43,167 nucleotides of DNA from Lysobacter antibioticus HS124. GTDB lineage: Bacteria; Pseudomonadota; Gammaproteobacteria; Xanthomonadales; Xanthomonadaceae. The stretch is from assembly GCF_000336385.2 (NCBI RefSeq), contig NZ_HG424615.1:1-43167 (forward strand), in the 5' to 3' direction. The first letter of the stretch is position 1; every line of letters starts with the position of its first letter. The position numbers and the translations under genes are program-made. Below are positions 8,795 to 27,447 of this stretch, one piece after another. The notes under the pieces are model-generated. The model saw nothing but the letters and a program-made list of their open reading frames with translations. It did not search any database and was not told the DNA's origin.

Positions 8795-8999
8795 TCCGCC
8801 CCTCCGCTGGGCGCCGGCGGCCGCGCCCGCCGCGGCGTGGACGGCATTATGAAGTGGCCGGGTCTGGCGGAATAAGACGGGGTTGGCGGTCGCGACGGAC
8901 CGCGGCGACGGGGCTGGGGCAGAATGGGTCCGCCCTGCCCTCGCCGTGCCGTCGTCCACGACCGTTGCGGCGGCGGCCACCGCATTCCGGAGTACGCGC

Positions 9000-10478
9000 A
9001 TGTTCCGACCGACCCGATTGCTCGTCGCCACGCTGGCCTGCGCCTTCGCTGCCGGGGCCGGCGCCGCCGAACCCGTCGATCTGCTGATCCGCCATGCCGC
9101 GGTGGTCGACGTGGTCGCCGGCAAGATCCGCCGCGACCGCGCCATCGCCGTGCGCGGCGACCGTATCGCGGGCATCGTCGACGATGCCCGCGCCGGCGAC
9201 TACGCGCCCGAGCGCAGCCTCGACGCGGGCGGCAAGTACGCGATCCCGGCGCTGTGGGACATGCACGTCCACTTCGGCGGCGGCGAAGCGCTGATCGAAG
9301 AAAACATGAACCTGCTGCCGCTGTATCTGGCCCACGGCATCGCCGCGGTACGCGACGCCGCCGGCGACCTCAGCCCGAGCGTGTTCGAGTGGCGCGACGC
9401 CGTCGCCGCCGGTCGGCTCGAAGGGCCGACCATCTTCACCTCCGGGCCGAAACTGGAAGGCTACGAGTCGATCTGGCCTGGCGACATCGAGGTCGGCAAC
9501 CCGGCGGAAATCTCCGCCGCACTCGACCGCCTGCAGGGGTGGAAGGTCGATTTCGTCAAGATCACCGACAACACGCTCAGCCCGGAGTTGTTCGTGGACG
9601 CGCTGCAACAAGCCCGTGCGCGCGGCCTGAAGGTGTCGGCGCACCTGCCGTTCGTGCTGAACGTCGACGAGGTCAGCGCCGCGGGGCTGAGCTCGATCGA
9701 GCACATCGAATACGCCTACAAGGCCGGCTCGACGAAGGAAGCCGAGATCGGGGCGATGGTCCGCCGCGGCGAGATCGACGCCAAGGAAGGCTGGAACCGG
9801 GTCCAGGCCAGTTTCGACCGCGATACCGCCCTCGCCGCCTACCGGCGCCTGGCCGCGCGCGGCACCGCAATCACCCCGACCCTCAACGGCAGCTACGTCA
9901 CCACCTACCTGGACCGCGACGACCACCGCGACGACGCCTATCTGCAATACATCGGCCCGGGGCTGGAGGCGACCTACGCCTGGCGGGTGGAGCGCGCGGC
10001 CAAGGACGACGCCGCGGCGATCGAGCGCCGCCACCAGCGCTACCGGCGCAACGCGGCGATCCTGCCGCTGCTGCAGCGCTCCGGCGTGCGCATCCTGGCC
10101 GGCACCGACGCCGGCTTCCTCAACTCCTTCAACTACCCCGGCATCGGCCTGCACGACGAAATGCAGCGCTTCGTCGAAAGCGGGCTGAGTCCGTTGCAGG
10201 CCCTGCAGGCGGCGACCATCAACGGCGCGCGCTTCCTCGGCCGCGACGACCGCTATGGCTCGCTCGATACCGGCAAGGCTGCCGACATCGTCCTGCTCGA
10301 CGCCGACCCGCTGCGCGACATCGCCGCCACCCGCCGCATCGACGCCTTCGTGCTGCGCGGCAAGGTCTACGATCGCGCGGCGCTGGACGCGCTGCTCGAC
10401 GCAGTCAGGCGCAAAGTCGCCGAGCAACGCGCGGCGGCGAAGGCGGCGCAGGCCGCGGCGAAGACGGACGAGCGTTGA
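9000..10478 (+). CDS. Secreted amidohydrolase family protein
   Basis: Metal-dependent hydrolase of the amidohydrolase superfamily, 492 residues. ATG 9000 has GGAG 7 bases upstream. The N-terminus is a signal peptide (RLLVATLACAFAAGAGA, cleavage near residue 23). The TIM-barrel metal motif is MHVHF (His89, His91), with further candidates in SAHLPF and SSIEHIEY and the catalytic Asp370 in GTDAGF. The C-terminal block LDTGKAADIVLLDADPL is the family's closing beta-sandwich. An Ala/Lys-rich tail follows. Imidazolonepropionase-like or dipeptidase-like enzymes are the nearest kin; the substrate cannot be read from sequence. It is divergent from the HNH-ATPase module and probably unrelated to it. 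Confidence 0.88.
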   Translation: MFRPTRLLVATLACAFAAGAGAAEPVDLLIRHAAVVDVVAGKIRRDRAIAVRGDRIAGIVDDARAGDYAPERSLDAGGKYAIPALWDMHVHFGGGEALIEENMNLLPLYLAHGIAAVRDAAGDLSPSVFEWRDAVAAGRLEGPTIFTSGPKLEGYESIWPGDIEVGNPAEISAALDRLQGWKVDFVKITDNTLSPELFVDALQQARARGLKVSAHLPFVLNVDEVSAAGLSSIEHIEYAYKAGSTKEAEIGAMVRRGEIDAKEGWNRVQASFDRDTALAAYRRLAARGTAITPTLNGSYVTTYLDRDDHRDDAYLQYIGPGLEATYAWRVERAAKDDAAAIERRHQRYRRNAAILPLLQRSGVRILAGTDAGFLNSFNYPGIGLHDEMQRFVESGLSPLQALQAATINGARFLGRDDRYGSLDTGKAADIVLLDADPLRDIAATRRIDAFVLRGKVYDRAALDALLDAVRRKVAEQRAAAKAAQAAAKTDER

Positions 10479-13281: not shown

Positions 13282-13503
13282 ATGAAGAAGCGTAACCGTG
13301 GCGTCCGCGTCGTCTTCGCGGCCCTGCTGTTCTCCGCTGCGATGGGATTCGGCGCCTTCCAGGTCGTCGCCGGCAACGGCGCCGAGCCGGCGCAATCGGA
13401 ATCCTGCAGCTCGTTCGCCTGCCGCAGCGAGTGTCCGGAATTCGGCGGCGATCTCGGCCCCGGCGGCCCCGGCCGTCCCCTGGTCTGCTATTGCTGCGGC
13501 TGA
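13282..13503 (+). CDS. Small secreted Cys-rich peptide
   Basis: 73 residues from ATG 13282, with AGGAG 7 bases before it. Residues 1-30 are a signal peptide (MKKRNRGVRVVFAALLFSAA, then GFGAFQVVA). The mature part is ~40 residues, Gly/Pro-rich, with six cysteines: CSSFACRSEC (42, 47, 51) and a C-terminal CYCCG (69, 71, 72). No family is recognised. It follows a CPYC thioredoxin-like protein and ends at a strong terminator, so the two probably form a unit. The frame is open back to the ATGA overlap at 13117, which would add 55 residues, but those codons lack coding bias and would bury the signal peptide. Confidence 0.7.
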   Translation: MKKRNRGVRVVFAALLFSAAMGFGAFQVVAGNGAEPAQSESCSSFACRSECPEFGGDLGPGGPGRPLVCYCCG

Positions 13504-13848: not shown

Positions 13849-16800
13849 ATGCCACAACGCATCGATCGGATCAAAAACCTCGCCGCGGTGTCGCAGTTCC
13901 GCATCGGCGCCCTGCTGGTCCAGCCCGACCGCCTGGCCATCGTCCGCGACGGCACGACCACCGCGCTGGAACCGCGCATGATGGAAGTGCTGGTCGCGCT
14001 GGCCGAGCGCGCCGGCGAAGTGGTGAGCGCCGAGCAGTTGCTGATCGAGATCTGGCGCGGCACCTTCTACGGCGACAATCCGGTCCACAAGACCATCGCC
14101 CAACTGCGGCGCCGGCTCGGCGACAGCAGCCGCGAACCCGAGTACATCGAGACCATCCGCAAGCGCGGCTATCGACTGGTCGCGCCGGTGGCCTTTCCCG
14201 ACGATTACCGCAGCGGGCTGCCGCGCGCTGCCGCCTGGACCGAGGGCAGCCCTTACGTCGGCCTGCGCTCGTTCGATGAAGCCCATGCCGGCGTGTTCTT
14301 CGGCCGTGCCCGCGCCACCGCCGACCTGCTCTCGACCCTGCGCGAACAGGTGCAGAACCAGCGCCGTTTCGTCCTGGTCTCCGGCGCCAGCGGCTGCGGC
14401 AAGACCTCGCTGCTGCGCGCCGGGGTGATGCCGCTGCTGCAACAGGCCGGCGGCTTCGACGGCCTGCACGCACTGTCGACGGTGTACTTCGATCTGGGCA
14501 TCTGCCGCGGCGGCGACGTGCTCGCGCGCTTGGCCCAGGCCTTGTGCGGCTGGAGCATCGGCGGCCGCCCGGTGTTCCTGGCCTTGGAGGCGCCAACGCT
14601 GGCGCTGCAGTTGCGCGATGCGCCGGACGCGGTGCAGGCGCGCATCGCCGACGCCTTCGTGCGCCTGAGCGGGCAACGCGCCGCCGATGCGCACCTGCTG
14701 CTGGTGATCGACCACGCCGAAGCGGCGGTGGCCGAGCCGGCGATCCTCGATCGCGATCGCGAGGAACTCGGCGCCGCGCTGCGCAACCTGTGCGGCTGCG
14801 CCGGCGTGGCCGCGATCGCGATCACCCGCAGCGACTTCTATCCGCGCCTGATCGAAGAGGTGCCCGGCGTCGCCGAGCTCAAGGCCGGCGACGGCCATAT
14901 CGACCTGCTGACCCCGCGCCTGGGCGAAATCGGCCAGATCATCCGCGCTCCGGCCGCATTGGCCGGCCTGAGTTTCGAAGAGGACCCCGACAGCTCGGTG
15001 CGCCTGGACGACCTGCTGCGCGACGCCGCCGCCCAGCACCCCGATTCGCTGCCGCTGCTGCAGCACACCCTGCAGGCGCTGTACGAACGCCAGGCCCCGG
15101 GCGGCGTGTTGAGCCTGGCCGCCTACCGCGAGATCGGCGGGCTGGAAGGCGCCCTCGCCCACCGCGCCGAACAGGTCTACAGCGAACTGCCCAGCGATGC
15201 CCAGGCCAGCCTGGAACAGGTGCTGGCGGCGCTGATCGTGATCCGCCCGGACAGCGATGCGGTCACCGCGCGCCGGGTATCGTGGTCGTCGCTGGCAGCG
15301 CCGGCGGCACGCGAATTGGCCGAGGCCTTCATCCGCGCGCGCCTGTTCGTCGGCGAACTCAGCGGCGGCGAGCCCGGCTTCGGCGTCGCCCACGAGGCCC
15401 TGCTGCGGCAATGGCCGCGCGCGCGCGAATGGGCGCACGACAACCGCCAGTTGCTGCAGGCGCGCGAACGCTTGCAGCGCGCGACCCGGCGCTGGGTCGA
15501 CGGCGGACGCCGTGCCGATCACCTGCTCAACCCGGGCCGCCCCTTGGCCGAAGCGCAGGAAGCCGCACGCCGGCTGCCGGCCGAACTCGGCCCCGGCGAA
15601 CGCGAGTTCCTGCGCGCCTGCGAACGCCAGCAACAGCGCAAACGCTGGCTGCGCACCGCCGCTCTCGGCGGCCTCGGCGCCCTGGCCTTGACCGCGACCG
15701 GGTTGGGCCTGCAGGCCTGGCAGGCGCGGCGCGAAGCCGAACGCCATCGCGACCAGGCCCAGCAATTGGTCGGCTTCATGCTCGGCGACCTGGCCGAGCA
15801 ACTGCGGCCGCTCGGCAATCTCAAGCTGCTCGACAGCGTCGGCAGCCAGGCCCTGCGCTATCTGGAGCGCATGCCGGACGCGCGGATGCAGCCGCGCGAA
15901 CTGCTCAGCCACGTGCGCGCCCTGCGCACGGTGGGCGAAGTGCTGATGAACCAGGGGCGTTTCGACGAGGCCCACCAGGCCTTCGAGCGCGCCGCGGCCG
16001 CCTTGCGCCAGGCTCGCCGAGCGACCCCGGACTCGTCGGAGATGCTGGCCGAATCGGGCACGGTCGCCTACTGGCAGGGCTATTACGACTTCCGGCAAAA
16101 GCGCCTCGACGCTGCGCAAGCCCACTGGCGCGAGTATCTGCGCGCCAGCGAGACGCTGGTCGCGCGCGCGCCGGCCGACCCGCGCTGGCAGTTGGAGTTG
16201 TCCTACGCGCTCAACAATCTCGGCACCCTCGCCCACACCCGCCAGCGCAGCGCCGAAGCCGCCGACCTGTTCGCGCGCTCGGTGGCGATCAAGCAGCGGT
16301 TGCTGGCGGACAAGCCCGACGACAAGCCGCTGCGCTTCGATCTGGTCGACAGCCTGTCCTGGCTCAGCAGTTCGCAGGAGGCGCGCGGACAACTGGACGA
16401 CGCCGCGCAAGGCTATTTACTGCAGAACCGGATGCTGCGCGAACTGGTCGCCAGCGAACCCGATGCCGACGCCTGGCGGCGCAAACTGGCGACATCGCTG
16501 CTGCGCACCTCGATCCTGTCCATCGACCGCGGCCATACCGAGCAGGCCGCGGCCGAAGTCGGCGAAACCCTGAGCCTGTTGCGCGCGCTGGTCCGCCAGC
16601 AACCCGACAACAGTACCTGGCGCCGCGATCTCGCCCACGCCTATGCGCATGCGGGCCGGATCGAGACCTTGCGCGGCGCGCGCCAACGCGCGGTCGCGCT
16701 GCTGCGCGAGGGGCGCGACAGTCTGGCGCCGCTGCTGACCGAGCAAGAGCCCTTGCCGGAGTGGCGTCGGGTCGGCGCGCTGCTGAACCTGCGCCTGGCC

Positions 16801-17172
16801 GAGGTCGACCCGCAGACAGCGACTCAGCCGGAACTGGTGGATCGCGCCGTCGCCGAACTCGCCGCGCTGCAGGCGCAGGCGCCGGGCGACGCCAAAAGCC
16901 TGGCCGCCTTGGCCTGGGCCCTGGCCTGGCGCGGCGAACGGCTCGCCGCGCGCGGCCAGACCGAACTCGCCCGCAACGACTGGACCCGGGTGCGCGATCT
17001 GGTCGCCGGACGCGTCGCCGATTCCAGCGACCGTTCCCTGCTGGATGCCTGGAGCCGCGCGCAAATCCATCTCGGCGCGCGCGACGCGGCGACGCGCCAG
17101 CTCGAATGGCTGCACAGCAGCGGCTATCGCCACCCCGACTTCATCGCCTTCTACGACGCATCCCCCCACTAG
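13849..17172 (+). CDS. Membrane STAND regulator: winged helix, nSTAND1 NTPase, TM, TPR region
   Basis: 1107 residues from ATG 13849; in-frame ATGs at 13804 and 13726 are alternatives but precede an Arg/Pro-rich stretch unlike protein. Residues ~15-105 are an OmpR/PhoB-type winged helix (MMEVLVALAERAGEVVSAEQLL, then VHKTIAQLRRRLGD and IRKRGYRLVAPV). Residues ~128-470 are an nSTAND1 NTPase, opening with SPYVGLRSFDEAHAGVFFGR; Walker A is GASGCGKTS (179-187) and the Walker B-like strand is LLLVIDHAEAA. One membrane helix lies at ~598-622 (RTAALGGLGALALTATGLGL). The rest, ~480 residues, is a helical TPR-like solenoid, probably periplasmic. The protein could thus sense outside and bind DNA inside, as CadC-type regulators do. 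DNA targets are discussed in the findings. Confidence 0.88.
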   Translation: MPQRIDRIKNLAAVSQFRIGALLVQPDRLAIVRDGTTTALEPRMMEVLVALAERAGEVVSAEQLLIEIWRGTFYGDNPVHKTIAQLRRRLGDSSREPEYIETIRKRGYRLVAPVAFPDDYRSGLPRAAAWTEGSPYVGLRSFDEAHAGVFFGRARATADLLSTLREQVQNQRRFVLVSGASGCGKTSLLRAGVMPLLQQAGGFDGLHALSTVYFDLGICRGGDVLARLAQALCGWSIGGRPVFLALEAPTLALQLRDAPDAVQARIADAFVRLSGQRAADAHLLLVIDHAEAAVAEPAILDRDREELGAALRNLCGCAGVAAIAITRSDFYPRLIEEVPGVAELKAGDGHIDLLTPRLGEIGQIIRAPAALAGLSFEEDPDSSVRLDDLLRDAAAQHPDSLPLLQHTLQALYERQAPGGVLSLAAYREIGGLEGALAHRAEQVYSELPSDAQASLEQVLAALIVIRPDSDAVTARRVSWSSLAAPAARELAEAFIRARLFVGELSGGEPGFGVAHEALLRQWPRAREWAHDNRQLLQARERLQRATRRWVDGGRRADHLLNPGRPLAEAQEAARRLPAELGPGEREFLRACERQQQRKRWLRTAALGGLGALALTATGLGLQAWQARREAERHRDQAQQLVGFMLGDLAEQLRPLGNLKLLDSVGSQALRYLERMPDARMQPRELLSHVRALRTVGEVLMNQGRFDEAHQAFERAAAALRQARRATPDSSEMLAESGTVAYWQGYYDFRQKRLDAAQAHWREYLRASETLVARAPADPRWQLELSYALNNLGTLAHTRQRSAEAADLFARSVAIKQRLLADKPDDKPLRFDLVDSLSWLSSSQEARGQLDDAAQGYLLQNRMLRELVASEPDADAWRRKLATSLLRTSILSIDRGHTEQAAAEVGETLSLLRALVRQQPDNSTWRRDLAHAYAHAGRIETLRGARQRAVALLREGRDSLAPLLTEQEPLPEWRRVGALLNLRLAEVDPQTATQPELVDRAVAELAALQAQAPGDAKSLAALAWALAWRGERLAARGQTELARNDWTRVRDLVAGRVADSSDRSLLDAWSRAQIHLGARDAATRQLEWLHSSGYRHPDFIAFYDASPH

Positions 17173-17199: not shown

Positions 17200-17634
17200 A
17201 TGCCCAAGGCCCAAGCCGCCTCCAAGACCCCCATCGTCATCGAATTCACCGTCGCCTACGTCGTGTTCGGCGGCAACGCCGGCCGCGGCGAATACTTCTA
17301 CAGCTTCTCGCCGGACGTGGTCATGGCTTACAAGGGCCAAAGCCCGGTGCAGATGGTCTACCAACTCGACGAAGGCGTCTCCAAGCATTTCGTGATCGAG
17401 AGCCTGCTCACTTCGGACGCCAAGAACCAGATCTACGACATCAAGATCGCCTCCGACGGCCGCAGCGTCAGCATGATGAACCGCAACGACACCCCCACCC
17501 TGATCTTCTTCTCCGTGCTGGTGCGCGACGGCAAGCGCGGCGTGCTGGTGGCCTGCGATCCGCAAGTCGGCAACGACCCGGAGATCACTCCGCAGGCGGG
17601 CCAGGTCAGGAAGGCCGGCAATAAAGCCAACTAG
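17200..17634 (+). CDS. Small DP-EP-like protein after the STAND regulator
   Basis: 144 residues, start 27 bases after the regulator's stop, with TAGGA 9 bases upstream. No signal peptide. The sequence looks all-beta (alternating stretches such as IVIEFTVAYVVFGG, VQMVYQLDEG, PTLIFFSVLVRDG). The C-terminal motif CDPQVGNDPEITP resembles the short DP...NDPE signature of the uncharacterised DP-EP family (former DUF1888); that assignment is from memory and moderate. Tight linkage implies a shared transcript with the STAND regulator, perhaps as partner or output. No function can be read. Confidence 0.75.
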   Translation: MPKAQAASKTPIVIEFTVAYVVFGGNAGRGEYFYSFSPDVVMAYKGQSPVQMVYQLDEGVSKHFVIESLLTSDAKNQIYDIKIASDGRSVSMMNRNDTPTLIFFSVLVRDGKRGVLVACDPQVGNDPEITPQAGQVRKAGNKAN

Positions 17635-17688: not shown

Positions 17689-18225
17689 TCAGCCGCCGCT
17701 GCCGCGGATCAGGCGCTCGCATTGGAACGCCATCGTGTGGGCGTTGCTCAGCCCTTTCGTATTCGCGCGCCGCGCGGTTTCGATCTTGCCGGTCAGGATA
17801 TCGAGGGCGGCGCGCTCGTCCTCGGTCCAATCCTTGTACTTCGCCGACGCCTTGTAGCGGTCGATCGCGGCCAGCGTATCGCGGTAGTCGTCGACGATGA
17901 AGCCGCGCCGGTCCGCGCAATTCTTCCACGCCCGCAACAGGACCGGATTCAGCTTGGGCGTATCGCGCGAGCACGGCCTGGCGCCGCAGGCCTGCCCCCC
18001 GTCCAGCCCCAGGCTTTCCGTGACGCAGTTATCGCGCCGCGATGCATAGGGAACCAACTGGCAGCCCTCGAGCTTGGATCGCCGCTCCACGTCCTTCTTG
18101 TCCAGATCGTCGCTGTCTCCGGCCTGCGACGTCGTCTCGTACGCCTCGATTCGCGGCGACGCCGCAACCGGCGCCGTCGCCAACGCCATCAGCCACGGCA
18201 ACGCCAGCAATCGCAATGTTTTCAT
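17689..18225 (-). CDS. Small exported Cys-containing protein, function unknown
   Basis: 178 residues from ATG 18225 (ATG 18240, five codons earlier, lacks a ribosome site). Residues 1-22 are a signal peptide (MKTLRLLALPWLMALATAPVA). The mature protein is hydrophilic with about six cysteines (EGCQL, DNCVT, QACGARPC, KNCADRR, FQCER), suggesting disulfides, and a helical second half rich in Lys/Asp. No family recognised. It is transcribed divergently from the 461-residue protein, and the shared promoter carries two copies of the GTAAGG-type box, one facing each gene. It converges with the DP-EP-like gene. Confidence 0.72.
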   Translation of the reverse strand: MKTLRLLALPWLMALATAPVAASPRIEAYETTSQAGDSDDLDKKDVERRSKLEGCQLVPYASRRDNCVTESLGLDGGQACGARPCSRDTPKLNPVLLRAWKNCADRRGFIVDDYRDTLAAIDRYKASAKYKDWTEDERAALDILTGKIETARRANTKGLSNAHTMAFQCERLIRGSGG

Positions 18226-18329: not shown

Positions 18330-18347
18330 CCTTACCGGCAACTGACG
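18330..18347 (-). promoter_or_regulatory. GTAAGG-type box, first unit, minus-facing
   Basis: Plus strand CCTTACCGGCAACTGACG; on the minus strand GTCAGTTGCCGGTAAGG, two half sites with an 11-bp period. It is flanked by GCACCTCGC, and the same arrangement recurs at 21241-21258. It lies 105 bases upstream of the minus-strand gene. Confidence 0.7.
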
Positions 18348-18453
18348 ATCGCTTCCGCAATGGCCGTTGCGCGAAATCACCGTTAATCACCGCTTCTTGC
18401 CGACACGCGCGGACATCGCCGCAAGCGCATGAAATCGCGGGCCGATTGGAACA

Positions 18454-18470
18454 GTAAGGTTGCCGTAAGG
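18454..18470 (+). promoter_or_regulatory. GTAAGG-type box, first unit, plus-facing
   Basis: GTAAGGTTGCCGTAAGG: two exact GTAAGG half sites 11 bp apart, 128 bases before the start of the 461-residue gene. The identical 17-mer occurs at 21329-21345. The period and direct orientation fit binding by an OmpR/PhoB-type winged helix. Confidence 0.75.
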
Positions 18471-18598
18471 CGCCGCGCGGCGCGACTGCGCACAGTCGGC
18501 GTCCTCGGACGGCGCCGTGCCGCATCCGGGACCGCGGCGCCGTCCGGCGCGCGGCATCCGCACGGACCCGCCAAGCGCGGGCTCAGGGAGTCAGGGCC

Positions 18599-19984
18599 AT
18601 GCTCAAGAACCAACCTCAGGACGCCAACAGCGCCCAACCGGGCGACAACGGCAACGACGAAATCGTCTCCGCGTTCCGCGATCAGGCTTACGAGCGTCGA
18701 GTGCAACAGCGCGCGCTCACCGGCGACGCCGCCGCCGCGGCCGACTACAACCAGAAGCCGTGGAGCTTGCTGTACAGCGCGCTGGTCAACTCGCTCGGCG
18801 TGACGCCGGAGACGTTCCAGCTGGTGTACCCGTTCACCAAGTGGAACTGGGAAACCGCCCAGTCCGGCTTCATCGGTTCGGCGCAATACGACTTCTGTTC
18901 GACCATGCCGCAATGGAGCGCGGTCGGCAATTACATTTCCAGCGGCGATCGCTTCAACGACGCCTACCAGCAGTTCCTCAACGTGATCGTCGCCGCGACC
19001 GACGATGCGAAGCTGCGCCAGAAGATCCGCGACGCGGACCAGCAGATGACCTCGGCGAGCAACAACTACGACAGCATCTATCGCCAAGCCGAAATCCGCT
19101 ACGGCGACCAGGTCAAGGACAACGACCCTTCGTTCTCGGACTGGCTCGGCTCGCTCGCCGGCAAGGGCTGGGCGACCAAGCTCGCCACCGCCGACACCAA
19201 GCTGACCCAGGCACAGACGACCTACAACGCCCTGGTCGCGGAAGCCAACACGCCCGGCCTGGCCGAAGCGCAGAAGCAGTACGCCAACCAGGATTTCTAT
19301 GCGCACCTGGAGTCCCCCGGGCTGCAGAACTACCCCATGGTTCCGTACTGGGCCGTGGCCCAGAACGCGGCCGATTGGGTCGATGCGGTGATGGCGAACG
19401 AAGGGCCGGCCGGGGCGACGATGGGCTTCACCTCGCGCGACTCGTCCTACGACTACAAGAAGACCTGGGCCGGCGGCTCGGCGGCGGTGCTGCAGTGGTT
19501 CTGGGAAGTGCAGGTCAACGGCAAGTGGGAACGCGTGACCCAGTTCGAGAGCGACAACGAGCTCGAAGTCTCGTTGGAGTTCCAGGCCATCGACCAGATC
19601 CAGATCCAGCCCGCGGACTGGTACAACGGCCCGGTGGTGCGCAGCCTGTCGGACGGTCCCTACACCCGCGGCTACAGCGAGTTCGGCGGCGACGGCAACA
19701 AGGCCGTGTTCGGCGAGAAGGGCTTCTTCACCCTGCTCAAGACCGGCATGATCGTCGGCTTCAAGCCGGCCTTCACGATCCGTACCAGCAAGTCGACCTT
19801 CGACTCGTTCCGGCAGAAGTTCAGTTCCGCGACCGGACTGCGCATCGGGCCGTTCGTGTTCGAAGCCGCCGGCGGCAGCGAACATGCCGGCTGGAACGCG
19901 AGCGCCTCCGGCCAGACCTTCAGCGGCACCACCAGCTCGAACCAGGCGCTGATCATCGGCGTGACGATCTCCAAGCTGCCCTGA
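18599..19984 (+). CDS. Unknown-family 461-residue protein, paralogue A
   Basis: Start ATG 18599 with GGGAG 8 bases upstream. No signal peptide; the first ~40 residues are polar (MLKNQPQDANSAQPGDNG). A helical N-terminal half (KPWSLLYSALVNSLGVTP, YDFCSTMPQWSAVGNYISSGD, a Gln/Asp-rich stretch at ~125-230) is followed by a beta-rich half with VFGEKGFFTLLK, ATGLRIGPFVFEAAGGS and an IIGVTISKLP terminus. It aligns along its full length with the protein at 21475 (about half the residues identical by eye), including KPWxLLY, QxxFIxxAQxDFC, PQWSA and TWAG. No enzyme motif is visible. The leader sequence is also conserved between the copies, so promoter and gene were duplicated together. Cytoplasmic location, or export by another route, is possible. 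Confidence 0.8.
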   Translation: MLKNQPQDANSAQPGDNGNDEIVSAFRDQAYERRVQQRALTGDAAAAADYNQKPWSLLYSALVNSLGVTPETFQLVYPFTKWNWETAQSGFIGSAQYDFCSTMPQWSAVGNYISSGDRFNDAYQQFLNVIVAATDDAKLRQKIRDADQQMTSASNNYDSIYRQAEIRYGDQVKDNDPSFSDWLGSLAGKGWATKLATADTKLTQAQTTYNALVAEANTPGLAEAQKQYANQDFYAHLESPGLQNYPMVPYWAVAQNAADWVDAVMANEGPAGATMGFTSRDSSYDYKKTWAGGSAAVLQWFWEVQVNGKWERVTQFESDNELEVSLEFQAIDQIQIQPADWYNGPVVRSLSDGPYTRGYSEFGGDGNKAVFGEKGFFTLLKTGMIVGFKPAFTIRTSKSTFDSFRQKFSSATGLRIGPFVFEAAGGSEHAGWNASASGQTFSGTTSSNQALIIGVTISKLP

Positions 19985-20135
19985 GCGCAAACCCGGCGCG
20001 ACCGCGCTGCGGAGAAACCGAAGCGACGCCGGCCGGGCCTCCCGGCCGGCGTCGCCGTTTGCGCAGGCGGTATCGCCATCCCCCCGGCGAATGCGTTCGG
20101 TCGTCCTCGTCGCGTCCTTCGCCGGATGCCAGGAC

Positions 20136-20165
20136 GTTGCTGTTGCTGTTGCTGTTGCTGTTGCC
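20136..20165. repeat. GTTGCT hexamer tandem repeat
   Basis: Four exact GTTGCT units and a fifth ending in C, in non-coding sequence. A slipped-strand hotspot in principle, but no gene start or promoter is visibly attached. Confidence 0.9.
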
Positions 20166-20325
20166 GTAAGAGCTTGGCGCCGCAGCGAACTTGCGAGAAC
20201 GCCCTGGAGCTCCGGAGGGCGGCCCGCAGGGAGGCGGGCCGTGCGCAGCCAGGCCAGGGAGGGCCTGTGCGGAGCAGCCCTGCGCAACCCCAGTCCCATA
20301 CCGAAACCGCCATGGCGTTTTCTTT

Positions 20326-20386
20326 GGTCACTTTTGACCGAAGGAAATCCAGCAGGACTTTGTCGCCTTGGACAAGGAAAGTGACC
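20326..20386. repeat. Inverted repeat GGTCACTTT...AAAGTGACC
   Basis: Nine-base perfect arms separated by 43 bases that include further pairing (TGTCG, CTTGGACAAGG). The pattern 'TTTCTTTGGTCACTTT ... AAAGTGACCCGG' resembles a dispersed intergenic repeat I recall from Xanthomonadaceae genomes, possibly a MITE. Family membership is from memory. Confidence 0.55.
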
Positions 20387-20473
20387 CGGCCGCTTGCGGA
20401 CGGAAGCTTGGCTTTGGAGCCTTATAGTTTTGAAGCTTCACAGACCTGCGAACGACAAACGCCGCGAGAACGA

Positions 20474-20500
20474 GGTCGCGGCTTGCGCCGCTCCTACCCC
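20474..20500. repeat. REP-like element, reverse orientation
   Basis: GTCGCGGCTTGCGCCGCTCC followed by TACCCC; the same sequence as the central copy at 5549-5577. Confidence 0.85.
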
Positions 20501-20558
20501 GCGATGGTTTCGGGCTTCGATCGATAGAGAAGGCGCTGGTTTATCTACGCGTCCCCGG

Positions 20559-20584
20559 GGGTGCGACTTGCCCGCTCCTACCCC
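20559..20584. repeat. REP-like element, diverged copy
   Basis: GGGTGCGACTTGCCCGCTCC followed by TACCCC; shares the GCTCCTACCCC end with the other copies but has a shortened stem. Confidence 0.65.
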
Positions 20585-20630
20585 GAACATTGGAAAGGCC
20601 CAGCGCGACCCACATCGGGCCAACGCGGGA

Positions 20631-20657
20631 AAGGCCCGGCGCGAGCCGCGCCGGGCC
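20631..20657 (-). terminator. Terminator of the decayed minus-strand gene
   Basis: Read on the minus strand, GGCCCGGCGCG, a 3-base loop and CGCGCCGGGCC form a perfect 11-bp stem followed by TTT, 27 bases beyond the stop codon at 20684. Confidence 0.75.
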
Positions 20658-20683
20658 CGGGTTGGGGCCGGTAGCCCGGTCGA

Positions 20684-21076
20684 TCATTGGATCTCGCAGA
20701 AGGTCCGGTAATGGTCGGGCGTGTAATAGCGCATCGCCACGACGTTCTTGCGCTCGCCCATGGTCACCAGATAGACCTGCCGCCGCGCGCCGGCAGCGCC
20801 GTCGTCCTTGCGGATCTTGCCCTCCCAATGCTGCTGGCCGCGCGCTGCAGCTTGGCCGGGTCGTTGTTGCAGACCTGCACGCACGTCCATGCCGGCGCGG
20901 GCGCACTCCGGGATCGGATTCGGATTGGCGATGCAGCACGACATGTTGCGCATGGCTTGCTTGATGTCCGGCGGCAGGCTGCGGCAGCCCGGCGGCTAGG
21001 CCGCATCGGCCTGGGCCAGGGCGGGCGCTGCGGCCAGTACGGCGAGCAGCACGGGGGTGGCGAGCTTGGCGTTCAT
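20684..21076 (-). pseudogene. Decayed gene for a small exported Cys-containing protein
   Basis: ATG 21076 follows a good ribosome site (AGGAG) and opens a signal peptide MNAKLATPVLLAVLAAAPAL, but an in-frame TAG at about 20998-21000 stops it after 26 residues. The same frame then continues PPGCRSLPPDIKQAM...SCCIANPNPIPECARAGMD to about 20882. Third-position GC bias then shifts to another frame that encodes CVQVCNNDPAKLQRAAS, and shifts back to WEGKIRKDDG and on to DHYRTFCEIQ at 20684. One stop plus two compensating indels is the mark of a pseudogene, although a sequencing fault is possible. It occupies the same place in the second divergent unit as the gene at 17689 does in the first. Confidence 0.72.
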
Positions 21077-21240
21077 GGCCGTTCTCCTGGAGGTCGCTGC
21101 AGCGGTCGGCAGCGCGCGACGACATACGGCACACGAGGACGGCCGCCTCCCTGCTGGGGTGCGAGCGGACCGGCCGCGCGGTCCGCGACGCCGGGGATCG
21201 GCGTCCGCAGATCGACCATGACGGCGCCGCGCACCTCGCG

Positions 21241-21258
21241 CCTTACCGACAACTTACG
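21241..21258 (-). promoter_or_regulatory. GTAAGG-type box, second unit, minus-facing
   Basis: Plus strand CCTTACCGACAACTTACG; minus strand GTAAGTTGTCGGTAAGG, with half sites 11 bp apart. Preceded by GCACCTCGCG, as at the first unit. Confidence 0.7.
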
Positions 21259-21328
21259 ATCGCCGGCACGCGGCGTCGCAGTCGCGCACGATCCCCTAAA
21301 GCATTGATCCATCTCAAAAAGAGCAACC

Positions 21329-21345
21329 GTAAGGTTGCCGTAAGG
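21329..21345 (+). promoter_or_regulatory. GTAAGG-type box, second unit, plus-facing
   Basis: GTAAGGTTGCCGTAAGG, identical to 18454-18470, 129 bases before the start of paralogue B. In the first unit the distance is 128 bases, so the position relative to the start codon is conserved. Confidence 0.75.
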
Positions 21346-21474: not shown

Positions 21475-22872
21475 ATGTCCCAGTCCGATTACCTGGCGCC
21501 CGACGCCGAAGAGGCCCTCGACGTGCAGGACGATCTCGGTCCGCTCTCGCAGTTCCGCCACGGCGCCCAGGACCGGCGTCTGCTCGAACTGGCCCGGCTC
21601 GACGCCGGCCTGGCCGCCAACGTCGACTTCGACGACAAGCCCTGGGGCCTGCTGTATCGCGCCCTGATCGATTCCTTGTACGCCTCGCCGGACGACTTCC
21701 AGCTGATCTACCCGGCCCAGCCCTGGGACTGGAAGCGCACCCAGGCCGGCTTCATTTCCGGCGCCCAGTTCGATTTCTGCGCCACCGTGCCGCAATGGAG
21801 CGCGATCGCCGCCTTCGTCTCCAGCGGCGACACGGTGCACCAGGCCTATCAGCAGTGCCTCAACGTGGCCCAGACGCAGACCGAATACCCGAGCCTGCGC
21901 CGGCACCTGATCGACGCCGAAGACGAACTGGTCGCTGCGACCAATCAGTACACCCTGGCCACGACCTCGGCCGCATCGGTGCACGCCACCCGCGGCGGCG
22001 AAGACGCGCCGAGCTTCAGTCAATGGCTGGGCAGCCGCGACGGCCGCCCGTACCAGAATCGCATCGTCGCCGCCGAAGTGCCGATGAACCAGGCACAGGC
22101 GCATTACGCCGCCCTGGTCGCGCAGTGCGACCATGCCGAACTCGGCGCCGCGCAGCGCCGCTGCTGCGACGAAGCCCATCGGGTGCGCCTGGCCGACCTG
22201 GACTTGCTGCGCATGCCGAAGGTGCCGGACTGGCGCATCGCCGAGCACGCCGAACGCTGGACCGAACGCGCCCGCCGCGGCGAGGCCCCGGCCGGCGTGA
22301 CCCTGGGCTTCAGCAACCGCGAAGCGCCCTACGACTTCAGCCAGACCTGGGCCGGCCGACAGAACAAGGTCCGCCGGCTGTTCTGGCAATTGCGCATCGA
22401 CGGCCGCTGGGAACGCATCGACGAGTTCGAATACGACCACCAGCTCGAACTGTCGTTGGACTTCCGCGCCATCGACCGCATCGCCATCGCACCCGGCGAC
22501 TGGTACGACGGCGACTTCGCCCGCAGCCTGATCGACGGCCCATTCGCGCACGGCTACAGCGCGTTCGGCGACGAGCGCAGCCAGGCGGTGTTCGGCGAGA
22601 AAGGCTTCTTCGGCCTAGTCAAACGCTCGATGTACGTCGGCTACAAGCCCAGCTTCGCCATCCGCACCACCACCTCGACCTTCCGCCGCTTCGGCTATCC
22701 CTTCCAGGCCGCGACCGGGCTGCGCATCGGGCCCTTCACCTTCGAAGCCGAAGGCGGCAGCCGGGCCGCCGGCTGGTGCGCCGATCCGGCCACCCGCACC
22801 TTTACCGGCACCACGACCTCGGAAGTGCCGATGATCATCGGCGTCGGAGTCGGCGAACTGCCGAACGCTTGA
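21475..22872 (+). CDS. Unknown-family 465-residue protein, paralogue B
   Basis: Start ATG 21475 with AAGGAG 6 bases upstream; the frame is open further 5' but that would translate the GTAAGG box and GC-rich leader. The protein is full-length homologous to paralogue A at 18599: KPWGLLYRALIDSLYASPDDFQLIYP, FDFCATVPQWSAIAAFVSSGD, DFSQTWAGRQNKV, VFGEKGFFGLVKRSMYVGYKP and ATGLRIGPFTFEAEGGS all recur. Conservation is strongest in the last 150 residues, with WERIDEFEYDHQLELSLDFRAIDRIAI as a linking segment. No signal peptide, membrane helix or catalytic motif is evident. Expression probably shares control with paralogue A through the conserved boxes. Confidence 0.82.
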   Translation: MSQSDYLAPDAEEALDVQDDLGPLSQFRHGAQDRRLLELARLDAGLAANVDFDDKPWGLLYRALIDSLYASPDDFQLIYPAQPWDWKRTQAGFISGAQFDFCATVPQWSAIAAFVSSGDTVHQAYQQCLNVAQTQTEYPSLRRHLIDAEDELVAATNQYTLATTSAASVHATRGGEDAPSFSQWLGSRDGRPYQNRIVAAEVPMNQAQAHYAALVAQCDHAELGAAQRRCCDEAHRVRLADLDLLRMPKVPDWRIAEHAERWTERARRGEAPAGVTLGFSNREAPYDFSQTWAGRQNKVRRLFWQLRIDGRWERIDEFEYDHQLELSLDFRAIDRIAIAPGDWYDGDFARSLIDGPFAHGYSAFGDERSQAVFGEKGFFGLVKRSMYVGYKPSFAIRTTTSTFRRFGYPFQAATGLRIGPFTFEAEGGSRAAGWCADPATRTFTGTTTSEVPMIIGVGVGELPNA

Positions 22873-22964: not shown

Positions 22965-24560
22965 TCAGCCCCGCCCGTACACCCGCGGGCAGTTGCTGCC
23001 CTCGCACTCGTGATTGGCTTCGTGCAGCAGCACCGACTGGCCGAGATCGCCGCGCGGCGGTTCGACCCCGATCGGCACGAACAGGATCGCGCTGGTACTG
23101 CGGCCGAGCCCGGCCGGCAGTTCGAAGCCGCGCACCACGCGGAACCGCGGCACGCCGGCGAAGCGCTGGTCGAAGCGCTTGGCGGCTTCGCCGTAGCCGC
23201 GCCACTGGAACAGATCCTGGTCGCTGGCCACGACCAGCGCGCCGCGCTGCCAAGCTTCGGAGAAGCGCTCGACCACGTTCGGCCCGCCCTCGTCCGCAGC
23301 GCTCAGAAAATCGTCGAGCGCGCGGCTGAGGGCGTTGGTGTCCGGCTTGCCCGCGTCGCCTTCGCCGGCGATCGCGCGCGCCGCCGAAGGCGCCGCCGGC
23401 AACGGCCGGCGCGCCTGTTCGAGCAGGGCCGGCGACAACGAAGAGCGGCGTTGTTTCAGCGCCACGACCTCCGCCTGCGCCTGCAGGATCGCGAAATACG
23501 GCTGCGCCTCACGGCCGCCGGCGGCGTCGACGCGTTCGCGCAGCTTGCGCGACCCGCTGCCGCCGTTGCGCAATTCGGCGTCGATGACCAGGGCCCCCAG
23601 CGCCAACTCCGGCTGCCGGTAGAGCCAGGTCCAGGCCCAGCCTCGCCAAGCCCCATCGAAGTCCGGATCGACGCGCAACGCACGCTCGAACAGCGCCTGC
23701 GCCGCATCGCGCTCGCGCCGCAATCGCGCCGGTTTCAGCGAGCCGATGTCCCCGGCTTCGGACGGCGCGGACAGATCGTCCATGAAACGGCGCAAACGGC
23801 GGATGCCGAGTTCGCGCGCGGCCAGCGCGCGGCGCGGATCGGCGTCGACCGCGATCGCCAGTTGCCGCTCGATCGGCGCATCGCCTTGCGGATCGCGGCC
23901 GGGGCGACGTTCGTCTTCGGCGACCATGCGCTGGTAGGCCGCCATCGCCGCTTGATACTCCGCAGCATCGCCCGACTGCGGCCGGTCGCGGGCGAGCTGG
24001 CCGAGCAACGCCAGTTGCTGGCGATAGAACCCGTCGCCGCGCGCCGCGTTGCGCGCCGACTCGCGGATCAGGCGCGCGCTTTCGGCTTCGTAGTCGGCCT
24101 GGCTCAGGCCCGGCGGCGGGTCGATCTCGATCGCCGGCGTGACCCCGGCCTGTTGCATGCGCGCCGCGGTCAGGCGCGAGCGCGCCGCATCCTGCCCGGC
24201 CTCGCGCTCGCGCCGCACCGTCATATAGCCATGCCCGAGCAACAACGCGCCCAACACCGCGGCCGCGATCGCGGTGCGCGTGGCCAGTTCGCGGTCGCGG
24301 TCCTCGTAGGCGCGCCAAGCCACCGCCAGCAGACTCGGCACGCCCGCCAATACCAGACCGGCGCGGAACCAGCGTTCGCCGTTCGACGCTTGCGGCGGCG
24401 ACAACCATTGCCCGAACACGGTCATCGCCCACATCGGCAGCGACATCAGCCAACCGGTATACGGCGCCAACACCAGTACGACGAAGAACGCCAGCACGCC
24501 CAGTTTGAACCAGGACCACCACGACGGACGCAGACGCATCGGCAGGACGATGCGCATCAT
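22965..24560 (-). CDS. Membrane protein with C-terminal HEANH motif, fourth gene of the TerY-type operon
   Basis: 531 residues; ATG 24560 overlaps the kinase stop (ATGA). The N-terminal ~130 residues hold three hydrophobic helices (FKLGVLAFFVVLVLAPYTGWL, RAGLVLAGVPSLLAVAW, TAIAAAVLGALLLGHGY). A long helical region rich in Ala/Arg/Glu follows, with TPR-like pieces (AQALFERALRVDPDFDGAWRGWAW). The last 20 residues include LLHEANHECEGSNC (His513, Glu514, His517), an HExxH-like zinc site at an unusual, extreme C-terminal position. Linkage to a VWA-phosphatase-kinase triad suggests a membrane output or sensor of that pathway. I do not recognise the family. Confidence 0.75.
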   Translation of the reverse strand: MMRIVLPMRLRPSWWSWFKLGVLAFFVVLVLAPYTGWLMSLPMWAMTVFGQWLSPPQASNGERWFRAGLVLAGVPSLLAVAWRAYEDRDRELATRTAIAAAVLGALLLGHGYMTVRREREAGQDAARSRLTAARMQQAGVTPAIEIDPPPGLSQADYEAESARLIRESARNAARGDGFYRQQLALLGQLARDRPQSGDAAEYQAAMAAYQRMVAEDERRPGRDPQGDAPIERQLAIAVDADPRRALAARELGIRRLRRFMDDLSAPSEAGDIGSLKPARLRRERDAAQALFERALRVDPDFDGAWRGWAWTWLYRQPELALGALVIDAELRNGGSGSRKLRERVDAAGGREAQPYFAILQAQAEVVALKQRRSSLSPALLEQARRPLPAAPSAARAIAGEGDAGKPDTNALSRALDDFLSAADEGGPNVVERFSEAWQRGALVVASDQDLFQWRGYGEAAKRFDQRFAGVPRFRVVRGFELPAGLGRSTSAILFVPIGVEPPRGDLGQSVLLHEANHECEGSNCPRVYGRG

Positions 24561-25987
24561 CGGTTCTTCAGCATTCGCGGCAGGGTCACGGCGAATACCC
24601 AGCACAGCACCAGGAAGACCGCGCCCAATCCGGTCATCAGCATCGCGTCGACCCAGGCTTCCAGCGGCTTATTGGCCGGGTCCGGTTGCAAGGCCGCATA
24701 CAGACGGTGCAGACCCTGGGCGATGAAGGCGAACAGCACCGGAAAGGCAATCGCAAGCATGCCGCGCGATTGCGTGGCCAGGCGCAGATTGGTCAGCCAT
24801 GCCGGTTGCGGCAGGCGCGCCGGCGGCGGTGCCGGCGTCAGTCGCGGCGGCGGCGGCCGGCCCAAACGCGGCGCACGCAAGCGGGCGGCCGCGGCTTGCG
24901 GCGCCGCGCGCGGCGGTTCCACCACCGGCCGCGGCTTGGCCTTGCGCGCGGTCTTGGCCAACAAGTCCTGGCGCGCGCACGAGGCGCAGGCCTGGCCGGC
25001 GTAATGCTGATGCTCGCGCTCGCGTTTGCACACCACCAGTTTGCCGCTGGAGGGCTTGGCGTAATCGCGCAACGCCGCGCTCCAATCGGCCGCGCTGGGC
25101 CGCTCGCCGCCGTCGCCGAAGGCGCGGTCGAACAGTTCGCGCAGTTCGCGCGGCACGCTGCCGTGGGCGCTGACCGGGCTCGGTGCCATCAAACGGTGCG
25201 CGCGCAGACCGTAGGCGTAGTAGCGCTCGCGGATGCGGCTGGGGATGTCGGTAGGCACCCGATCGGCCGCGGGCTTGCCGGTATAGGGATGCAGGCCGAA
25301 ATTGAGCAGTTGGAAGATCACCACCGCCAAAGCGAAGCGATCCTGCGCCTCCTCGCCGAGCGGATCGGGCCCGCGTTGCTGGAACTCCGGCGCCAGGTAA
25401 TCCGGGGTGAACTGCGGCGCGGAGTAGCGCCGACCGCGGCCCTGGATGCTGAAACCGTCGCAATCGAGCAAGGCGATGTACAGCGAGGCGCGGTAGAAAC
25501 GCAGATTGACCGGCTTGAGATCGACCACGTAGTGGTGCTGCGCGTGCAAAGCCGCGAGCACCGCACTGAGGTTGGCCGCCAGGGTGATCTTCGGCCCCAG
25601 CCCGACCGGCAGGCCGGCGGCGCGCGCCTGCCGCTCCTGCAGCACCTGCTCCAGTTCGGAGGTCGACTGCACGTCCAGCGCCGGCATGGAAAACCCGACG
25701 AAGCGGCCGCGCTCGTCGCGCACGGTCGCGTCCGGCCAGGCGATCTGCACGTAGCGTTTGCCGCCCTCGAACTGGTCGGGCAGTTGCGGACGCAGCTCGA
25801 GCATGGCCTCGACGCGGTCGGTATAGCTCGGCGGGTCGACCCGCTCGTGATAGATCTTCGCCACCCGGTCGGGAAACTCGGGCAGCAGGTAGACGCTGCC
25901 CGCGCCGCCGCTCTTGATCAGCGCCCCCAGGCGGGTGCGCCCGTCGCCGATGCGGATGCCGCTGCCGCTGACCGGACTGGTCGTCAC
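24557..25987 (-). CDS. TerY-P-type protein kinase with zinc ribbon and membrane helices
   Basis: 476 residues from a GTG start at 25987, with GGAG 8 bases upstream. The kinase core spans residues ~20-300: Gly loop KSGGAGSVYLL, Lys in RVAKIYHE, catalytic loop YVVDLKPVNLRFY (Asp but no HRD) and metal motif LLDCDGFSI in place of DFG. APEFQQRG and DRFALAVVIFQLL are the activation segment and helix F. A zinc ribbon follows (CKREREHQHYAGQACASCARQ pattern: Cys, His, CxxC), then a Pro/Arg linker and two C-terminal hydrophobic helices. This is the kinase of the TerY-P phosphorylation triad described for tellurite/stress islands. It probably phosphorylates the VWA or fourth-gene product. Confidence 0.87.
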   Translation of the reverse strand: MTTSPVSGSGIRIGDGRTRLGALIKSGGAGSVYLLPEFPDRVAKIYHERVDPPSYTDRVEAMLELRPQLPDQFEGGKRYVQIAWPDATVRDERGRFVGFSMPALDVQSTSELEQVLQERQARAAGLPVGLGPKITLAANLSAVLAALHAQHHYVVDLKPVNLRFYRASLYIALLDCDGFSIQGRGRRYSAPQFTPDYLAPEFQQRGPDPLGEEAQDRFALAVVIFQLLNFGLHPYTGKPAADRVPTDIPSRIRERYYAYGLRAHRLMAPSPVSAHGSVPRELRELFDRAFGDGGERPSAADWSAALRDYAKPSSGKLVVCKREREHQHYAGQACASCARQDLLAKTARKAKPRPVVEPPRAAPQAAAARLRAPRLGRPPPPRLTPAPPPARLPQPAWLTNLRLATQSRGMLAIAFPVLFAFIAQGLHRLYAALQPDPANKPLEAWVDAMLMTGLGAVFLVLCWVFAVTLPRMLKNR

Positions 25988-25991
25988 CGGT

Positions 25992-26750
25992 TCAACTCCG
26001 CAGCGCGATCAGCAGGGTCTTGTCGTCGGACGTGATGCCGTGCGTGCGCGGATCGTCCAGCGTGCCGTGCAAGGCGCGGCTGCCTGCGGCTTCGTCGACC
26101 GTGCGCAGATAGCGCTCGACCGGGTCCATGAACGGACGATACAGACCGGCATTGCCCTTCTGCATCGCGAACGGCATCGCGCCGTCGGACATCAACGCCA
26201 CCCGCTCCACCGGCTCGCTCACCGCAAGCACTCGCAGGCAGCCGCGCCAGGCCTCGCCGGTGACGAAGTAGGTTTCGTTGGCGTATTCGCCGTTATGCGG
26301 CAACGAGATCCGCGCCGGCGCGTCGGACTGTGCCGGCTCGGCCACGCCGAGACCGTCGCCGACATGCACGAACCAGCCGCGCTGCGCGTCGCCGACATAG
26401 GCCACCAGAGTCGCGGCGTAGCTCGACAAGGCCGCGCCGTCGCGCCGCGCGCGCGCGACCAGGACCTCGCGGGCGAATGCGACGGCCTCGCCCGCGAACC
26501 CGGCGAAGCCGTCCTCGTCGGCCTGCAACCACTGCGGCTGCGCCGCCAACCGTTCGGCCAGCGCCGCGACCACCGCATCGGCGATCAACCGCGAACCGAT
26601 CTCGCTGTGCGCGGCCGAACCGGCGCCGTCGCATACCGCCGCGACCAGGCGTTCGCCGTCGACCCGGTACGCGAACGCGTCCTGGCACGGGATGCCTTTG
26701 TCGAGGTGGGATTTGCCGGTCGCCGATGCCGCATGTACCTGCCAGCCCAT
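25992..26750 (-). CDS. PP2C-family protein phosphatase of the TerY-type triad
   Basis: 252 residues. The metal-binding motifs of PP2C are present: CQDAFAYR near residue 22, VAAVCDGAGSAAHSEIGS (DGxGS) near 37-55, FVHVGDGLGV and, late in the protein, GITSDDKTLLIAL with the SDD aspartates. It should dephosphorylate Ser/Thr targets of the adjacent kinase. It lies 13 bases after the VWA gene and 4 before the kinase gene. Length is typical of the triad's compact PP2C. Confidence 0.9.
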   Translation of the reverse strand: MGWQVHAASATGKSHLDKGIPCQDAFAYRVDGERLVAAVCDGAGSAAHSEIGSRLIADAVVAALAERLAAQPQWLQADEDGFAGFAGEAVAFAREVLVARARRDGAALSSYAATLVAYVGDAQRGWFVHVGDGLGVAEPAQSDAPARISLPHNGEYANETYFVTGEAWRGCLRVLAVSEPVERVALMSDGAMPFAMQKGNAGLYRPFMDPVERYLRTVDEAAGSRALHGTLDDPRTHGITSDDKTLLIALRS

Positions 26751-26763
26751 GACCCGGCGCCGC

Positions 26764-27447
26764 TCAGGTCGGCACCGCGGACCAAGTGTCCGTGGAAGGC
26801 AATTGCGCCTGTCCGCCCGGCCGCGACTGCGACACCACCTGCATGCTCGCGCTGAGCCACAGGAACAGTTCGCGGAATTGCAGACCGTGCAGGCGCTTCA
26901 CTCCGGCCAGCCCCTTGCTGCTGAACTGGCCCATGGCCTGCTCCTGCGAGCCCTCGCCGACCGCGATCGGGAAAATCGCGACCTTGTTGGCCAATTCGGC
27001 TTCGCGCGCGCGCTTGGCCGCCGCTTCCCAGGCATCGGTCGGCGAACCGTCCGACATCAGGAACAACCACGGCCGGGTATAGGCGACGCCGGCCTGCTTG
27101 AAGCGCTGCTTCTCGTTCTCGATTTCGGTCAGGGCCAGTTCGACCGCGCGCCCGGTCGGCGTGGTGCCGTCGGCTTCCAGCGCCGGCGCGGCGAAATCCA
27201 TCGCATCGCACCAGTCGCCGACGACTTCGGCGTGATCGAAGCCGCCGTAGCGGATCACCAGCACGCGCACCCGCTTGGCCGCGATGACATCGTCCTTGAG
27301 TTCGCGCTCGAGCAGCTTCAGGCCCTCGTTCAACTGCTGCACCGGCTGGCCGTTCATGCTGCCGGAACAGTCGAGCACCAACACCAGCGGCGTGCGCTGT
27401 TCGGTGTTGTCGACCAGGGATACGTCGGGGATCGCCGTCTGCGTCAT
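26764..27447 (-). CDS. TerY-like VWA-domain protein, first gene of the triad operon
   Basis: 227 residues from ATG 27447, with AAGGA 7 bases upstream. A single von Willebrand A domain: metal-ion-dependent adhesion site DCSGSMNGQP (residues ~26-35), the conserved Thr in DGTTPTGRAVELA and the Asp in LFLMSDGSPTDAWE. C-terminal ~50 residues (LQFRELFLWLSASMQVVSQ) match the usual end of TerY. TerY proteins act with a PP2C phosphatase and a zinc-ribbon kinase; all three lie here in order. No TerB, TerC, TerD or TerZ homologue is within the window, so this is a stand-alone TerY-P triad. Confidence 0.9.
   Translation of the reverse strand: MTQTAIPDVSLVDNTEQRTPLVLVLDCSGSMNGQPVQQLNEGLKLLERELKDDVIAAKRVRVLVIRYGGFDHAEVVGDWCDAMDFAAPALEADGTTPTGRAVELALTEIENEKQRFKQAGVAYTRPWLFLMSDGSPTDAWEAAAKRAREAELANKVAIFPIAVGEGSQEQAMGQFSSKGLAGVKRLHGLQFRELFLWLSASMQVVSQSRPGGQAQLPSTDTWSAVPT

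Follow-up and report, generated by a model that had tools for sequence, protein, structure and literature searches.

Which protein reads a short direct repeat that stands four times between neighbouring genes of Lysobacter antibioticus HS124? The question arises in a stretch of 43,167 nucleotides (nt) (contig NZ_HG424615.1, positions 1 to 43,167; hereafter the window), in which two divergent gene pairs, units 1 and 2, each carry two boxes built of repeats with a period of 11 base pairs (bp), one box facing each gene. Upstream of both units, 1.4 kb from the first, lies the gene of a STAND (signal transduction ATPase with numerous domains) regulator that combines an N-terminal winged helix, an nSTAND1 ATPase and tetratricopeptide repeats (TPR). 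We propose, with a probability of about 0.85 and from comparative sequence analysis, that the four boxes are candidate operators of this regulator, which would bind them as a dimer, be released by a signal and most likely activate both units. Since in the related genomes sampled the rare site is confined to those that encode the regulator or its DNA-binding domain, the box is very probably the switch of this winged-helix–nSTAND1–TPR protein.

Four conserved boxes confined to one locus

The initial annotation described four direct-repeat sites, of which the two facing forward share an identical 17-mer placed 128 and 129 bases before the start codons. A pattern scan recovered all four as described. 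At up to two mismatches, the window held six matches against 1.5 expected, a count that none of 100 shuffles reached; the six are the four boxes and two matches at two mismatches (4139 and 41022). The 17-mer is not scattered through the genome either: in 5,144,029 bases on 183 contigs, the forward-facing version occurred twice at up to two mismatches, its reversed control did not occur, and the pattern GTMAGN6GTAAGG matched exactly at four places only, the four boxes. One mismatch added 27 genome matches, which we regard as noise because the reversed control outnumbers the pattern at that level (26 + 29 versus 17 + 14).

Identity of the boxes between the two units proves little alone, because the units are paralogous: their forward proteins are 44% identical and their intergenic DNA can be aligned. 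Evidence for constraint on the box comes from other genomes. Over 17 forward-facing sites from 15 genomes, the box columns had a mean identity of 1.00 (16/17 invariant), compared with 0.58 upstream and 0.58–0.60 downstream, and over 28 minus-facing sites of genus g17 the values were 0.99, 0.68 and 0.70–0.84, respectively. Thirty-seven distinct 19-mers, hand-picked as the stronger sites with weaker ones omitted, give roughly YCGKMAGg-TTN-YSGDMAGG. The 11-bp period first proposed thus stands, whereas the GTAAGK half-site proposed with it is better written as approximately YCGKMAGG. The box faces its gene, 40–165 nt from most start codons. Many boxes are preceded by an additional conserved element (L095–L108, forward-facing sites; L090–L094; L145–L158): CATTGA stands about 22–27 nt before the box in loci of the same genus and CACTTG about 6 nt before it in other loci.

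Box and regulator occur together across the family

When named genomes were scanned, five loci were obtained, in Xanthomonas nasturtii, X. melonis, Xanthomonas sp. AmX2, Lysobacter enzymogenes and Lysobacter sp. yr284. The gene order is the same in all of them: regulator, DPQ gene (the gene next after the regulator, described below), minus-strand small gene or genes, and forward gene. Four carry a box with one mismatch at most, and the fifth has variant boxes, scored with a matrix partly trained on them.

Among 395 sampled genomes of the family, 40 carry GTAAGGTTGCCGKMAGG (reversed control, 0 in every row) and 68 have a match to the regulator (E up to 1e-100, with the best few candidates per genome scored in the regulator searches). 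All 40 box genomes fall within the 68, and GTAAGGTTGCCGKMAGG is found in none of the other 327, which answers in the negative whether the 17-mer also occurs in strains lacking the regulator. The remaining 28 of the 68 lack the exact pattern and divide into seven with near-variant boxes (G186, G202, G271, G388, G372, G118 and G064), two with regulator fragments only (G175 and G192, loci L143 and L144), in which no convincing box was seen, and 19 with distant regulators. Near-variant boxes are present in all four g17 genomes that have a full regulator without the exact pattern.

Twenty genomes were sampled in the genus of HS124. Fifteen of them were selected for their forward gene, irrespective of the box, and all 15 have a regulator match and the exact box; the other five have none of the three. 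In every one of the 42 loci fetched (39 selected by the box, three by the forward gene), the regulator, the DPQ gene and at least one box stand together. Twenty-two of these loci, all from g17, have no forward-gene match and one strong box. A frame with a signal-like start opens 88–89 nt from the strong box in 10 of the 14 g17 loci shown; as its length varies (83–152 amino acids, aa), it is less surely a gene.

The distant regulators were followed in 14 of the 19 genomes (G089, G094, G144, G204 and G216 were left out) and are 36–55% identical to that of the window. A box-like site of at least 15 bits lies within about 2.1 kb of the regulator gene in 12 of these 14 loci, 18 chosen sites of which are shown; the matrices used on the named, fetched and distant loci include sites from the named and the 42 fetched loci. 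Five loci encode two regulators, and four of them (L145, L146, L151 and L154) hold one box-like site per regulator, the second site of L145 reaching 13.8 bits only. The distant box mostly faces a small XRE-type gene, assigned by similarity with Pfam run on two. A matrix built from own-genus and near sites exceeded its null, the 99th percentile of column-permuted matrices, in 28/28 g17, 3/3 g7 and 9/14 distant loci and in 0/2 fragment-only loci; the row Lyso of this test, which includes L089 of another genus, is circular, as its sites trained the matrix.

The DNA-binding domain and the box stay together in other families

Across 299 genomes of the order, CCGTAAGGTTNCCGNMAGG was found in 14 (control 0), nine of them in family f12. 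There the box adjoins a gene with the same winged helix in 9/9 genomes (50–65% identical over about 100 residues), and several of the frames around the winged helix are only 200–367 aa long. A DPQ-gene match (tblastn, 1e-5) was obtained in two of the nine, the same two that have a full-length regulator. In the eight genomes of genus g91 (L181–L188), the box lies between the winged-helix gene and a gene that, judged by eye, resembles a response-regulator gene, and faces the latter. Many of the g91 winged-helix proteins are short and lack the STAND and TPR parts.

A domain-only profile, A6, scored at least 150 bits in 32 of the 299 genomes, and the exact box is present in 14 of these 32 versus 0 of the remaining 267. 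Fifteen further loci from f3, f9, f11 and f12, scoring at least 148 bits for the domain and lacking the exact pattern, were scored with a matrix whose training loci were different ones, in part from the same genus; 14 have a box above the 99th percentile of their own permuted-matrix null, mostly within 2.1 kb of the regulator (about 3.4 kb in L231). In all, box and DNA-binding domain co-occur in five families of the order. That the two stay together when the remaining regulator and the target genes differ backs the initial proposal that the regulator controls units 1 and 2. Support for this is strong yet indirect, as both physical binding and the sign of control are inferred. The pairing of box and regulator itself is strongly supported by this comparison across genomes.

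A STAND regulator with an OmpR-type winged helix

The start of the regulator gene was set to agree with relatives; the open frame begins further upstream. The predicted OmpR/PhoB-type winged helix was borne out by Pfam (Trans_reg_C, 64.2 bits, residues 77–151 of the longest frame), as were a full-length nSTAND1 domain (285.3 bits, E 1.4e-84, positions 1–378 of 379, from residue 176 of the longest frame) and TPR (TPR_2, 34.1 bits). A receiver domain was absent among the 16 Pfam families listed, and no Pfam match to a BTA-type activation domain was obtained at E 0.1 or better. The closest solved chain to the winged helix is CadC (E 2.3e-18), and the protein scores 71.2 against the CadC NCBIfam model, the cut-off of which is 400. 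The genome holds at least eight other OmpR-type domains, and the eight found are without the stretch GDNPVHKxIAxLR that is common to most box-linked domains and that we take, from the known fold, to lie in the recognition-helix region. A possible membrane segment near residue 600 (hydropathy only) appears in 11 of 12 regulators, the window's own protein falling below the cut-off, and hints that regulators of this type may be membrane-anchored.

With PhoB and WalR the regulator shares the winged helix and its boxes the 11-bp direct-repeat geometry; the half-site differs, the sites are confined to one locus, and the Pfam matches include no receiver domain. The term PhoB-like, used at first for the box, is therefore apt for its geometry but not beyond, CadC supplying the nearest solved domain. 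One-component regulators of the CadC/ToxR type resemble the protein in this winged helix and perhaps in a membrane segment of its relatives, but it carries in addition a STAND ATPase and TPR.

The closest working analogue is AfsR of Streptomyces, a STAND-TPR protein that is restrained by its C-terminal domains and that places its OmpR-type domains next to each other on two 11-bp repeats (PMC10936776). In AfsR and the large SARPs (Streptomyces antibiotic regulatory proteins) as in the regulator, a STAND protein bears an OmpR-type winged helix at its N-terminus and TPR at its C-terminus, and the operator consists of two direct repeats at 11 bp; unlike AfsR, the regulator has an nSTAND1-type ATPase, a different half-site, a Gram-negative host and no BTA domain that we could find. 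We did not file it as a SARP, because this activation domain was not found. The 3' repeat of AfsR-type sites lies 8 bp from the -10 element (PMC10936776), whereas here no -10 was recognised by eye.

Proposed mechanism and points against it

Each half-site would take up one copy of the winged helix, and the two copies, separated by a helical turn of 11 bp, would be arranged head to tail. Until it is released by a signal, perhaps relayed by the SO1698-like DPQ protein encoded next door, the regulator is presumably held inactive by its STAND/TPR part. The released regulator would then recruit polymerase at each promoter, as suggested by AfsR, and both divergent units – the forward genes for the 461- and 465-aa proteins together with the opposite-strand small genes – would most likely be turned on jointly. 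As the BTA domain was not found, the contact with polymerase would have to differ from that of AfsR.

Several observations weigh against this reading. Within the window, the scan found no box upstream of the regulator gene itself, and inspection by eye of the own-genus, g17 and distant sites shown recognised no conserved -10 near the boxes. Part of the g17 conservation is built in, because most g17 loci were selected by the box pattern, and six of the nine f12 box genomes contributed rows to profile A6. Co-occurrence is inflated more generally: box and regulator are usually linked, so that they are gained and lost jointly, and the genomes are not independent. Three g17 genomes (G092, G231 and G392; L070, L072 and L084) have a broken regulator frame beside an intact box. 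Among the distant loci, five of 14 did not exceed the permuted-matrix null, L157 has a weak box only (11.6 bits), L152 has no local box, and L153 has two sites beside one regulator, with nothing beside the other that exceeds 11 bits; the recognition-helix region of this box-less regulator departs most clearly from the remaining domains. Of the 15 further loci, L226 is marginal (17.5 versus a null of 16.9) and L229 gave no box in the matrix scan.

The genome of L152, G067, also corrects the simple picture of linkage. Its regulator lacks a local box, and its sole exact-class site is found on a different contig, where a 404-aa frame with no Pfam match starts 111 nt further on. This site is a possible trans target of the regulator.

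Alternative explanations

The alternative that survives best keeps the regulator on the boxes and reverses its effect: it would repress, and the signal would lift repression of both units. The data are equal for repression and activation, and conserved AT-rich sequences, CATTGA and CACTTG, stand just upstream of many boxes; because of these and because no -10 was recognised, the box could overlap or follow the promoter. CadC and ToxR, on the other hand, are activators. So is AfsR, the closest solved analogue (PMC10936776). On balance we consider activation probable and repression rather unlikely.

It is most improbable that the box belongs to a different OmpR-type regulator, PhoB or another response regulator, with the STAND gene as a bystander. 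Two half-sites at an 11-bp period are general to OmpR/PhoB-type sites (for SARPs, PMC10936776), and the eight or more further OmpR-type domains of the genome would offer candidates. However, the exact sites of this genome all lie at this locus, the other OmpR-type domains lack the recognition-helix signature, and every family genome without a match to the STAND regulator (327/327) is also without the box. Such genomes would normally have PhoB-type regulators.

Slimmer still is the chance that another part of the module, either the DPQ protein or a leader element acting at the RNA level, accounts for the box. The position of the box, facing a start codon at 40–165 nt in most cases, would suit a leader element, and the DPQ gene adjoins the regulator in 42/42 loci; yet at the f12 box loci the DPQ gene is unmatched in 7/9 and the winged helix present in 9/9, and the DPQ protein has the fold of a peptidase-type beta sandwich. 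Least likely of all, in our view, is that the boxes are functionless remnants of a tandem unit duplication, since, paralogous units with alignable intergenic DNA notwithstanding, box columns stand at 1.00 against 0.58 for their flanks in genomes found by gene, and in other genera the genes that follow the box are of unrelated kinds.

Genes of the locus and their neighbours

The features of the locus, whose boxes and genes we have so far referred to by unit, are collected in Table 1.

Table 1 Boxes and genes of the regulator locus in the window
Feature	Position	Strand	Sequence or size	Remarks
Regulator gene	13849..17172	+		Winged helix (about residues 17-110), nSTAND1, TPR
DPQ gene	17200..17634	+	144 aa	Next after regulator; ends ..CDPQVGNDP..; all-beta, SO1698-like fold
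Unit 1 minus gene	17689..18225	-	178 aa	Signal-like N-terminus; no recognised family
Unit 1 minus-facing box	18330-18348	-	19-mer TCGTCAGTTGCCGGTAAGG	104 nt from ATG 18225
17-mer core of unit 1 minus-facing box	18330-18346	-	GTCAGTTGCCGGTAAGG	One departure from GTAAGK
Unit 1 forward-facing box	18452-18470	+	19-mer CAGTAAGGTTGCCGTAAGG	17-mer core 18454-18470; ends 128 nt before ATG 18599
Unit 1 forward gene	18599..19984	+	461 aa	No recognised family
Unit 2 minus gene	20684..21076	-		Ribonuclease-like; in-frame stop in this genome
Unit 2 minus-facing box	21241-21259	-	19-mer TCGTAAGTTGTCGGTAAGG	164 nt from ATG 21076
17-mer core of unit 2 minus-facing box	21241-21257	-	GTAAGTTGTCGGTAAGG	
Unit 2 forward-facing box	21327-21345	+	19-mer CCGTAAGGTTGCCGTAAGG	17-mer core 21329-21345; ends 129 nt before ATG 21475
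Unit 2 forward gene	21475..22872	+	465 aa	No recognised family

The residues D-P-Q are invariant in all six aligned DPQ proteins, and the protein was assigned an SO1698-like fold, a peptidase-type beta sandwich. It is 16% identical to SO1698 of Shewanella oneidensis (PDB 3n55 and mutants), and the profile match by sequence alone is not significant (E 0.12). SO1698 is deposited as an aspartic peptidase, and SO1698-like proteins cleave themselves at Asp-Pro. Cleavage of the DPQ protein is putative, and its gene, unlike that of SO1698, adjoins a STAND regulator. Small genes of a similar kind, bearing the invariant tail CDPQVGNDP, also follow distant regulators.

The minus gene of unit 2 is intact in G205, of the same species, and in the near relative G252. 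Its ribonuclease family is taken from its relative in L004, which matches a Pfam ribonuclease at 5.3e-7 and solved bacterial ribonucleases at 4.3e-4. L004 carries two related small secreted genes in tandem on the minus strand (9048-9431 and 8542-8925); judged by eye, the one adjoining the box seems to be without the catalytic residues of a ribonuclease, which the second one has, and of the two only the second has the Pfam match.

Three further stretches of the window were noted. Upstream of the regulator, 13282-13503 encodes a cysteine-rich peptide of 73 aa with a hydrophobic start and no Pfam match. Between the units, 20128-20380 consists of a GTTGCT repeat run followed by apparently non-coding, repeat-like sequence and contains a lone half-site-like CCGTAAGA. 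Right after unit 2, on the minus strand, 22965-27447 holds a kinase-like gene (Pkinase 2.1e-5, below the cut-off), a PP2C phosphatase gene and a gene for a VWA protein; kinase and phosphatase genes also adjoin the forward gene in L004 and L005.

Discussion

In the literature we found no description of what the winged-helix STAND (NLR-like, that is, resembling nucleotide-binding leucine-rich-repeat receptors) regulators of these bacteria sense or control. A short operator that predicts regulator–target pairs in several families would give a reporter-assay route to the inducer and a direct view of the on state. The pairing would also show in a clean way how an NLR-type switch can act on transcription when the SARP activation domain is missing, and it suggests a partner protein that may cleave itself.

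A wider reading, speculative and, taken as a whole, rather doubtful, would join these elements. The regulators would form a family of NLR-like transcription factors, perhaps membrane-anchored, with the DPQ protein as self-cleaving sensor or trigger, and many members would adjoin an 11-bp direct-repeat operator of their own. In Lysobacter and Xanthomonas, the targets would be secreted proteins, one of them a ribonuclease, and large helical-plus-beta proteins that possibly attack membranes; in other genera, the same operator would feed an XRE or response-regulator relay. If this reading were true, the locus would be part of an inducible circuit of attack or defence, with a STAND protein as its transcriptional switch.

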